DNA of 39,713 nt from Helicobacteraceae bacterium. GTDB lineage: Bacteria > Campylobacterota > Campylobacteria > Campylobacterales > Sulfurimonadaceae. The stretch spans positions 76,837 through 116,549 of the forward strand of contig JALWGC010000011.1 in assembly GCA_027038835.1 (NCBI GenBank), written 5' to 3'. A program made the position numbers and the translations under genes. The notes beneath the pieces were generated by a model that was given only the letters and a program-made list of their open reading frames with translations, searched no databases and was not told where the DNA came from. Shown here piece after piece: positions 24,947 through 28,072 of this stretch. The first letter of the stretch is position 1. Each line of letters opens with the position of its first letter.

Positions 24947-25065
24947 ATAAAAATAACTTGATATTATCATTTAACACCGTTTTGTTTTTACGATTAAAGA
25001 ATCAAGTAAGCTATAAGTTGTTTTTTATTATTATACCAATAATAACTCGATATACAAGGTTTATT

Positions 25066-27030
25066 ATGCAGTTTGTAAAAAAGTTGATGTTCTTCTCGTT
25101 GGTAGGAGGAGTTTTAGCCAATGCGTACGGTGCGTCTCAAATCAAGATTATCTGCGATAAAGACGGTGAAGAGGTGTATCTGAACAAAAAGTTCAAAACC
25201 GAATGCGACAAAGATGAAGTGGTGCGACTGATGGTCAAAGAGGGTCGCCATACAATCGAAGTGAAAAAAACCGACAAAGAAGCGAAATACTCGTTTAAGA
25301 CGAAATTTCGCATAGGTGACGGCGTGCAAAAAGTGATAGAACCGAAAGTACAACCGCTGTACAACGAATACCACTACTACAAACAAGCACTTCAAGACGA
25401 AAGTTTGCAAAGTTGCAGCAAATATCTGCAAAAATATCCACATGGAAAGTACCGCAAACAAATAATGCAACTCCAAGCGTATCTCGAAGCGAAAAAAGAT
25501 TTTTCGAAATATGCCAAATTCAAACGCACCTACCCCAAAAGCGAATTTTTGCAAAAACTCAAAAAACACTATATCGACAACCCGCTCATAGCAACGCTTC
25601 GCGGGCATACAAAAGGGGTCGAGACACTGAGTTTGACCAAAGACGGTTCGAAGCTGTTCTCCGGTGGAGACGACGAAAAAATCATAGAGTGGGATTTGAA
25701 AAGCAACGAAATCGTCAAAACATTCAGCTACTCACATGACAAAGGTGGAACGCTTTCTGTAACTACCACCGCTTTGAGCGATGACGAAAACTACCTCTAC
25801 AGCGACGGAAGGTCGGCATTTAGAAAATGGAACGTCAAAACGGGTAAAGGAGAGATAATAGCCGATTTTTGGCCCGAAAAGATTTTGATACTCGACAAGA
25901 GCGAAGCCATTACTTGCAGAGGAGACAGAGTCGATATCTGGAACTTGAACGAACGAAAAATAGTTTTTACCTATTACGGCAACGACGGCTATAGCGCCAA
26001 CCTTTACGGCTGCACCCTCACAAAAAACAAAAACTACCTCTACTTCGGACAATATGACGACAAACTGCAAAAAAACGTTTTGGTACGTTTTGATGTGCAA
26101 ACAAGAAAAATCGATAAAAAATACATAAACGACAAGCTTCGCTCCACTATCAAATCGATAGCGCTTTCTCCCGATGAAAGAAACATTTTCAGCGCGACGC
26201 GAGAGGGCGAAATTTTGGTATGGGATGCGAAAAACGGAAGTGTCGTCAAAGTACTGAAACAAGAGGGCAACATCGTCAGTGCGGCCGCTTCTGCAAAAAG
26301 AGGACTCATTGCGACGGGAAGCACGAAAGGGAGTGTAACGCTTTGGGATGCGCCAACGGGGATCGCCATCAAAACGATCTACACATACGTCGGTGTCAAC
26401 GCCTTGCGTTTCAATCAAGATGGCACGAAACTTTTTTGCGCTTTGGACAACGGCGACATTCAAGTTTGGTATGTCGGTTTTTACGACAAAGCAAGCGTTT
26501 TTTCTTCCTTGCTCGATGAATGCGAAAGTGGAAATGTAACCGCTTGTAACGACTACATAGTAAACGGCGGCACAAAAAAGAAAATCGCAAAAACGGCGCT
26601 GCTTAAACAGCTTAAAAATATCATCCAAGCAAACGGCGGCGAGATAACCTACACAAACCCGAAACTTTTCCTTTACAAACACAAAAATACCGACAAACTT
26701 ACGGCTTCGAACGCAAAAACGCTCTATAGTGTCGAGACCATTGTGCAAAACGCCGGCAAAACCTACATACTTGTCGATATGGACTTCCATAATACCGGAT
26801 TCACGTTCAACGCGCCTATTTACCTACAACAAGGCTCGAACAAAAAGAACTATACTCAAAAAATCCCCTCCGATTACAAAATCAAAATCGGTACGCAAGA
26901 TGTGAAAGTGGTTTTCGTTTATGACGATTTTCCACTCGAAAAAGGTAGCTACACTATCATAGAAGGGGACGATCCATCGTGCAGTAATTGTTTACGCATG
27001 AAAAACGGCGAGATTGTCAAGATTTACTAA
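25066..27030 (+). CDS. Exported WD40 beta-propeller protein with PEGA-like N-terminal domain
   Basis: From the ATG at 25066 (AAGG six bases upstream) the 654-residue protein has a signal peptide (MQFVKKLMFFSLVGGVLANA). Residues about 24-95 look PEGA-like: short strands with GEEVYLNKKFKTEC and VKEGRHTIEVKK. A Lys/Tyr-rich helical part follows (about 100-165). From about 170 to 475 there are six or seven WD40 blades, seen as LRGHTKGVETLSLTKDG, IIEWDLKS, RKWNVKTG, VDIWNLNE, ILVWDAKNG, VTLWDAPTG and IQVWYVG. The C-terminal ~180 residues are unrecognised, with several cysteines (CESGNVTAC, CSNC). It is a likely periplasmic or outer-membrane-associated interaction platform. I do not know its partner; the next gene is also an exported protein, now broken. 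Confidence 0.85.
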   Translation: MQFVKKLMFFSLVGGVLANAYGASQIKIICDKDGEEVYLNKKFKTECDKDEVVRLMVKEGRHTIEVKKTDKEAKYSFKTKFRIGDGVQKVIEPKVQPLYNEYHYYKQALQDESLQSCSKYLQKYPHGKYRKQIMQLQAYLEAKKDFSKYAKFKRTYPKSEFLQKLKKHYIDNPLIATLRGHTKGVETLSLTKDGSKLFSGGDDEKIIEWDLKSNEIVKTFSYSHDKGGTLSVTTTALSDDENYLYSDGRSAFRKWNVKTGKGEIIADFWPEKILILDKSEAITCRGDRVDIWNLNERKIVFTYYGNDGYSANLYGCTLTKNKNYLYFGQYDDKLQKNVLVRFDVQTRKIDKKYINDKLRSTIKSIALSPDERNIFSATREGEILVWDAKNGSVVKVLKQEGNIVSAAASAKRGLIATGSTKGSVTLWDAPTGIAIKTIYTYVGVNALRFNQDGTKLFCALDNGDIQVWYVGFYDKASVFSSLLDECESGNVTACNDYIVNGGTKKKIAKTALLKQLKNIIQANGGEITYTNPKLFLYKHKNTDKLTASNAKTLYSVETIVQNAGKTYILVDMDFHNTGFTFNAPIYLQQGSNKKNYTQKIPSDYKIKIGTQDVKVVFVYDDFPLEKGSYTIIEGDDPSCSNCLRMKNGEIVKIY

Positions 27031-27044
27031 AGGATTGTATTGTT

Positions 27045-27566
27045 ATGAAATATGCGATTTTTTTGATACTCCCTCTACTACTGTATGGTGGAATGGATGA
27101 TTTCGACCAGTTCGAAGCGTTTGACAATCAAGACAAAAAAGAGTTCAACAATTTGGAAAATCAAATAAATATTACAAATACAGGTAAAAGTATGTTCGCC
27201 CTGTATGACGAAGCGATCAATACAGATCGATTCCTTGAGTTCTTGCAACGAGTTGTCGATGCAAGCGAGACGAAAATCTATATGATTCTCGACAATCTCA
27301 GGGTGCATCACGCAAAAGTAGTCAAACAGTGGGTCGAACAACACAAAGACCAAATCGAACTCTTCTATTTGCCGGCTTATTCTCCCGATCTCAATCCGGA
27401 TGAATATCTCAACCAGGACTACAAACAAACTGCCAATCGCAACAATCTCCCAACGACTAAAAAGCAACTGGAAAAAAATACAAAAGCCTATATGGAGCAT
27501 CTCGCTAAAAACCCACAAAAGGTAAAAAATTTCTTTCAAGCTGAATCAGTCAGGTATGCAGCTTGA
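27045..27566 (+). pseudogene. Chimeric ORF: signal peptide of an exported protein fused to an IS630 transposase C-terminus
   Basis: The ORF starts like a secreted protein: MKYAIFLILPLLLYG, then an acidic stretch (MDDFDQFEAFDNQDKKEFNN). From about residue 42 (ITNTGKSMFALYDEAINTDRF) to the stop it is the last ~130 residues of an IS630-family transposase. It includes ILDNLRVHHAK, LFYLPAYSPDLNPDEYLN (second Asp and final Glu of the DDE triad) and the terminal VRYAA. A full IS630 transposase is about 340 aa, so the N-terminal DNA-binding part and first catalytic Asp are missing. The fusion stays in frame, but function is unlikely; the host gene was interrupted and its 3' part continues after 27566. 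Confidence 0.8.
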
Positions 27567-27594
27567 TGAATCTTGTTTTTTGGTGGAGTAATAA
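27166..27594 (+). mobile_element. IS630-family insertion sequence remnant (3' part)
   Basis: The remnant covers the transposase C-terminal coding part and a short downstream stretch (about 27567-27594, ending GGTGGAGTAATAA), where the element's right end should be. The left end, terminal repeat and about 60% of the transposase gene are absent. Boundaries are estimated from where IS630-like protein sequence begins and where host-like sequence resumes. No TA target duplication can be proven. Confidence 0.65.
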
Positions 27595-28072
27595 CTGCAT
27601 CGAAGATTGGGATTTCGAGTGCGCCGCAAATAAGATACGAAAGATAAAAAAATTCGTAACCTCCAAAAAAGACGCTACAACCATCTCGAATCTACAAGCC
27701 GCTTTGACCGATGCGAAAGAGAAAAAAAGAGCTTACGAAGAAGCACAAAGAAGAGCCAACGCCAAAAAATCGTTCACTATCGACAACTGTCAAAACGCAA
27801 GGGACGGTGCTATGATGTGCACTTTGCGCGTAGAGGGAGAATACGACGGCAATATTTTTTACAAACTTGAAAACGACGGCAAATACGACATTTTCATCTT
27901 AGGTTCGAAAAACGCTTCGAATTGCCAAGGATTCTACGACACCACTTTACACAGAGTCTGGACGACACGTTGTGGAGATTCTGTTTTCGGTGCTAGTCAA
28001 AAACGTTTTGTTTACGACCTCTCAAGCGCACTGAAAATGTACGCTTCATGTGCGATAAACGGAAACTACTGA
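27566..28072 (+). pseudogene. 3' part of the interrupted exported-protein gene (unknown family)
   Basis: The ORF begins at an ATG overlapping the transposase stop. Its first residues (MNLVFWW) are probably encoded by insertion-sequence DNA. Host-like sequence starts around NCIEDWDFECAANK. It contains a charged helical part with coiled-coil character (DATTISNLQAALTDAKEKKRAYEEAQRRANAK) and a C-terminal globular domain with five cysteines (DNCQN, MMCTL, SNCQGF, TRCGD, ASCAI) suitable for disulfides in the periplasm. It has no signal peptide of its own, which supports the view that the signal is stranded upstream at 27045. I do not recognise the family. The stop overlaps the convergent antiporter gene by 7 bases. 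Confidence 0.65.

Follow-up and report, generated by a model that had tools for sequence, protein, structure and literature searches.

The split host gene and its chimeric reading frame

The window examined here, by which we mean the whole stretch of 39,713 nucleotides from a Helicobacteraceae bacterium, contains on its forward strand a chimeric reading frame, ORF A (27045..27566), that is open over 173 codons with no stop across its internal junction and that joins 42 codons of a host gene to residues 216-346 of an IS630 transposase. Judged by eye, its N-terminus (MKYAIFLILPLLLYGG) is a signal-peptide-like stretch similar to the beginnings of the orthologues described below, and the AAAGGA upstream of it is a plausible ribosome-binding site. 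The stop codon of ORF A overlaps by one base (TGATG) the ATG of ORF B (27566..28072, forward strand), which begins within the IS630 remnant, continues into host residues 45-203 without a signal peptide and contains neither a stop nor a frameshift. A gene with Pfam WD40 repeats (24958..27030, forward strand) lies 14 bp upstream of ORF A and is a probable operon partner of the host gene.

A preliminary description of this DNA had proposed that a secretion signal is fused in frame to the end of an IS630 transposase whose left two-thirds are missing, and profile and protein comparisons agree on both points. In ORF A, Pfam DDE_3 (PF13358) aligns with residues 42-142 over its profile positions 43-145 of 146 (E 1.3e-28). 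The NCBIfam model transpos_IS630 (NF033545) covers residues 44-153 with its positions 190-298 of 299 (E 1.8e-27); the score of 96.6 bits falls just short of the cut-off of 100 set for the whole protein, a shortfall to be expected of a frame that carries a transposase fragment. To judge from these alignments, the homology to the IS630 C-terminus is far in excess of chance. Against the intact 347-aa transposase of a related element (locus L007), ORF A aligns over residues 216-346 at 66% identity; its C-terminal part consists of the last 131 transposase residues, so that the C-terminal catalytic half is present whereas 62% of the full DDE_3-type enzyme (~345 aa) is absent. Because the N-terminal two-thirds are gone, the product of ORF A could not be an active transposase, and on its sequence the element is to be classed as a remnant of an IS630 member rather than a functional one. 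The lost segment includes the L007 stretch WWADETACV, which we take to hold the first catalytic aspartate of the DDE enzyme.

The host protein encoded by an uninterrupted gene in a related genome (G003) matches the window twice, its residues 3-46 with the N-terminal residues of ORF A (48% identity, E 3.4e-10) and its residues 45-203 with ORF B (66% identity). It follows from this double match that the first 42 residues of ORF A are host sequence and not part of the IS, that one host gene has been split, and that its codons have all been retained; since they are complete on both sides, only IS sequence has been lost. The left host-gene part, up to the TA target site (27045..27171, forward strand), corresponds to the beginning of the G003 protein and was also aligned separately with four orthologues. 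What had been called an acidic linker turns out to be the MDDF.QFEAFD segment, conserved in the host protein after its signal-peptide-like start. Three features that extend the preliminary description are the remainder of the host gene directly downstream (27566-28072), a deletion that removed IS sequence but no host codon, and the 6-bp repeat described below.

Alignment of orthologous loci, which the preliminary description had recommended, places the uninterrupted gene in four Campylobacterales genomes (G003, G039, G208 and G128), where it is a single ORF encoding 191-203 aa that begin with a hydrophobic stretch. With ORF B as the query, three of 60 genomes were matched (the window's own, G003 and G039), and with the G003 protein as the query, 6 of the 398 genomes of the order (the window's own, G039, G208, G128, G430 and G301, G003 itself not being among the six), the matches in G430 and G301 being weaker or partial. 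The G301 match covers 47 residues and includes a stop. In G430 (L037, 1498-2736), a 412-aa lipoprotein-like protein ends in a stretch that matches the host protein's C-terminal part, an arrangement that suggests, at the level of sequence, that this part might be a separate domain. No Pfam or NCBIfam family matched the host protein above cut-off, and the predicted product is probably an exported protein of ~200 aa belonging to an uncharacterised family. A WD40-like gene lies directly upstream of the host gene at L004 (Pfam) and at L005 and L036 (by eye), and intact orthologues with this neighbour are found in G003, G039 and G128; the gene upstream of the uninterrupted copy in G208 resembles, by eye, only the start of the window's WD40 gene. 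The succession of a WD40-repeat gene and a gene for a small, probably exported, cysteine-containing protein recurs in scattered Campylobacterales.

The IS630 remnant and its proposed deletion junction

The remnant itself (27172..27591, forward strand) is 420 bp long, with ~688 bp missing from the left side of the element. It is flanked by two copies of TA (27170..27171 and 27592..27593, forward strand, positions read directly), and PMC8533490 describes a TA target duplication for the IS630-Tc1-mariner (ITm) group, of which it is typical. Such a short repeat is weak evidence when taken alone, but here its two copies stand precisely where relatives predict the ends of the element. The intact elements L007 and L011 start with TA-TTACTCCAC and end with GGGGAGTAA-TA or GTGGAGTAA-TA, and the remnant has the right end GGTGGAGTAA-TA, finishing at 27593. 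The right inverted repeat (27573..27591, forward strand) is intact; in reverse complement it starts with TTACTCCACC, as relatives do at their left ends, and reads TATTACTCCACC, which is also what L007 has at its left end. The left repeat, in contrast, is reduced to the 4-bp tip TTAC, which continues as AAATACAGG, transposase coding sequence from codon Ile216.

The junction falls on the hexamer TATTAC (27170..27175, forward strand), which is common to the target TA plus left IS tip and to the Ile216-Thr217 codons. On the coding strands of L007 and L011, TATTAC occurs exactly twice, at position 0 (the tip) and at position 688 (the Ile216-Thr217 codons), and a 688-bp deletion between these copies would leave remnants of 426 and 423 bp, respectively, compared with the 420 bp seen. 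The fusion frame is open because both copies of the repeat share the same reading phase. This junction has been reconstructed from elements that are 65-73% identical in DNA, since the segment lost from the window is gone and a near-identical intact copy was not found. The pair of repeats is complete in two of the four elements with both ends read (L007 and L011); of the other two, L018 has the tip copy only, and in L008 the tip reads TATTAT and the internal site TATCAC. When distinct elements are counted, TATTAC is found internally in 4 of 7 (L007, L009, L011 and L019; the site reads TATCAC in L008 and L020, and L018 has no match to the pattern) and at the tip in four of five left ends (L007, L011, L018 and L024, not L008). 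No other remnant among the loci compared has the same junction. An Alviniconcha endosymbiont MAG (L012 / L024) carries another internally deleted IS630 with both ends present, in which residue 171 of the transposase is joined straight to residue 288, at a junction different from that of the window.

Relatives of the inserted element

The preliminary description had pointed to IS630 elements elsewhere in the same genome as a place to look for the source, but the transposase fragment occurs there in one place only, with no second copy. The transposase part is matched at E 1e-10 or better in 5 of 100 relatives' genomes, the window's own included, and the best non-self matches among these 100 have 64-65% protein identity. 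The best long match in named genomes reaches 67%, and the best among 286 plasmid records with relatives reaches 61%. Short matches of 92-95% over 21-31 residues were found in a Campylobacteraceae MAG; G361, whose matches agree with these in length and identity, probably represents this genome too. To the level of subfamily, the matches across these genomes place the source in an IS630 group that is spread through the Campylobacterales. For a source on viral contigs, 19 pattern matches were considered and none was confirmed.

Six loci of the MAG M17_metabat1_scaf2bin.176 (L027-L032) have the same right end, at 78-80% DNA identity over 88-128 bases. Five of these six lie at contig ends, with the IS630 right end GTGCCGTAATA beside unrelated flanks, and the element has apparently multiplied recently and breaks the assembly. 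A search of this MAG for an intact copy of this element, the closest to the remnant, with the full-length L007 transposase and without a positive control, returned no match, as expected if the copies are broken at the contig ends.

Origin and coding status of the locus

We propose that a TA within a gene whose ~200-aa product is probably exported was the target of an IS630-family element, which subsequently lost ~688 bp on its left side, reaching from the tip to transposase codon 215. On the simplest reading, the loss would be a deletion between the two 6-bp direct repeats TATTAC, most likely through slipped replication or short-homology end joining, which by chance would have placed 42 host codons in frame with the last 131 transposase residues and left the host gene as two ORFs. 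The insertion followed by deletion that the preliminary description had envisaged is thus supported by the uninterrupted orthologues and by the IS relatives. We give a probability of roughly 90% to the reading in which these two steps produced the fusion and the locus is debris, a split pseudogene, and most likely a recent one. Were a product exported at all, it would comprise only part of a fold and would probably be degraded. Both homologies, the intact orthologues, the TA duplication, the right repeat and the places of the hexamer in relatives are observed; the sequence of events, the way in which the deletion arose and the absence of function are inferred.

The conservation of ORF B bears on whether the locus might still be in use. 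Its dN relative to G003 is 0.26, and relative-rate counts were taken in place of dN/dS because dS is saturated and could not be estimated in any of the four orthologue comparisons. In counts made with each of three outgroups separately, the window and G003 show 13 versus 11 changes of their own (154 columns), 8 versus 7 (144 columns) and 14 versus 9 (144 columns), and of 35 residues invariant in the outgroups ORF B retains 31 and the intact G003 gene 32. Stop-free frames, which both ORFs have, together with the lack of a clear excess of changes in ORF B, favour neither a recent event nor retained function; the ORF B counts fit a recent event and do not demonstrate function. The split locus might nonetheless work in part if ribosomes that terminate at the end of ORF A were to start again at the ORF B ATG, giving a host domain without its signal. 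The overlapping stop and start codons, the retained invariant residues and the near-even rates agree with this, but we consider it unlikely, since ORF B lacks the export signal with which its orthologues start, dS is saturated, and a recent insertion would yield the same numbers. Moreover, L020 and L024 also have TGATG at the corresponding IS end, and the motif was therefore not shaped at this locus. It is more doubtful still that the exported host-transposase fusion and the remaining host protein, coupled through TGATG, constitute a two-ORF operon whose protein is still in use. Neither export of a chimera nor re-initiation to make the downstream half is supported, though either may occur.

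The preliminary description had left the choice between neutral debris and a young chimeric gene; debris is favoured here, and the recruitment of an exported transposase tail to a new role seems very improbable to us. A frame that is open through the junction and a plausible ribosome-binding site speak for such a gene, but the fusion carries half a DDE fold with its N-terminal part absent, and retention of the frame would by itself be expected by chance one time in three. No second example of the chimera was found in the genomes searched, the window's own species being represented by one genome. The joining of two loci by an assembly artefact is the least credible of these alternatives, because the host sequence carries on correctly on both sides of the remnant and because the TA duplication and the intact right repeat flank it.

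Read as a split pseudogene, the locus is ordinary, an IS remnant within an interrupted gene, the history of which is unusually readable. It offers a clean case of how an IS remnant can come to lie in an open fusion frame without selection, by way of a deletion between 6-bp repeats at the IS tip and within the transposase gene, and it advises caution in annotation, in that ORFs resembling a "secreted transposase" can be halves of split pseudogenes. A narrow literature search did not turn up a published description of such a case, and we do not claim that none is in print.

Comparison with known systems places the element in the IS630 family (IS630-Tc1-mariner group), with which it shares the C-terminal DDE_3 domain, the TA duplication and the terminal repeat TTACTCCACC of its Campylobacterales relatives, and from whose members it differs in having lost its left ~62% and in encoding no active transposase. 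The host gene agrees in sequence and in gene order with a family of probably exported proteins of ~200 aa whose genes follow a WD40-repeat gene in Campylobacterales; of this small gene four uninterrupted copies have been seen, but it is split in the window. Like other IS-interrupted genes or insertional pseudogenes that contain an internally deleted IS, it is a divided gene with orthologues that are intact elsewhere; unlike them, it has undergone a deletion that ended at the IS tip and in frame, with an uninterrupted fusion ORF as the outcome.
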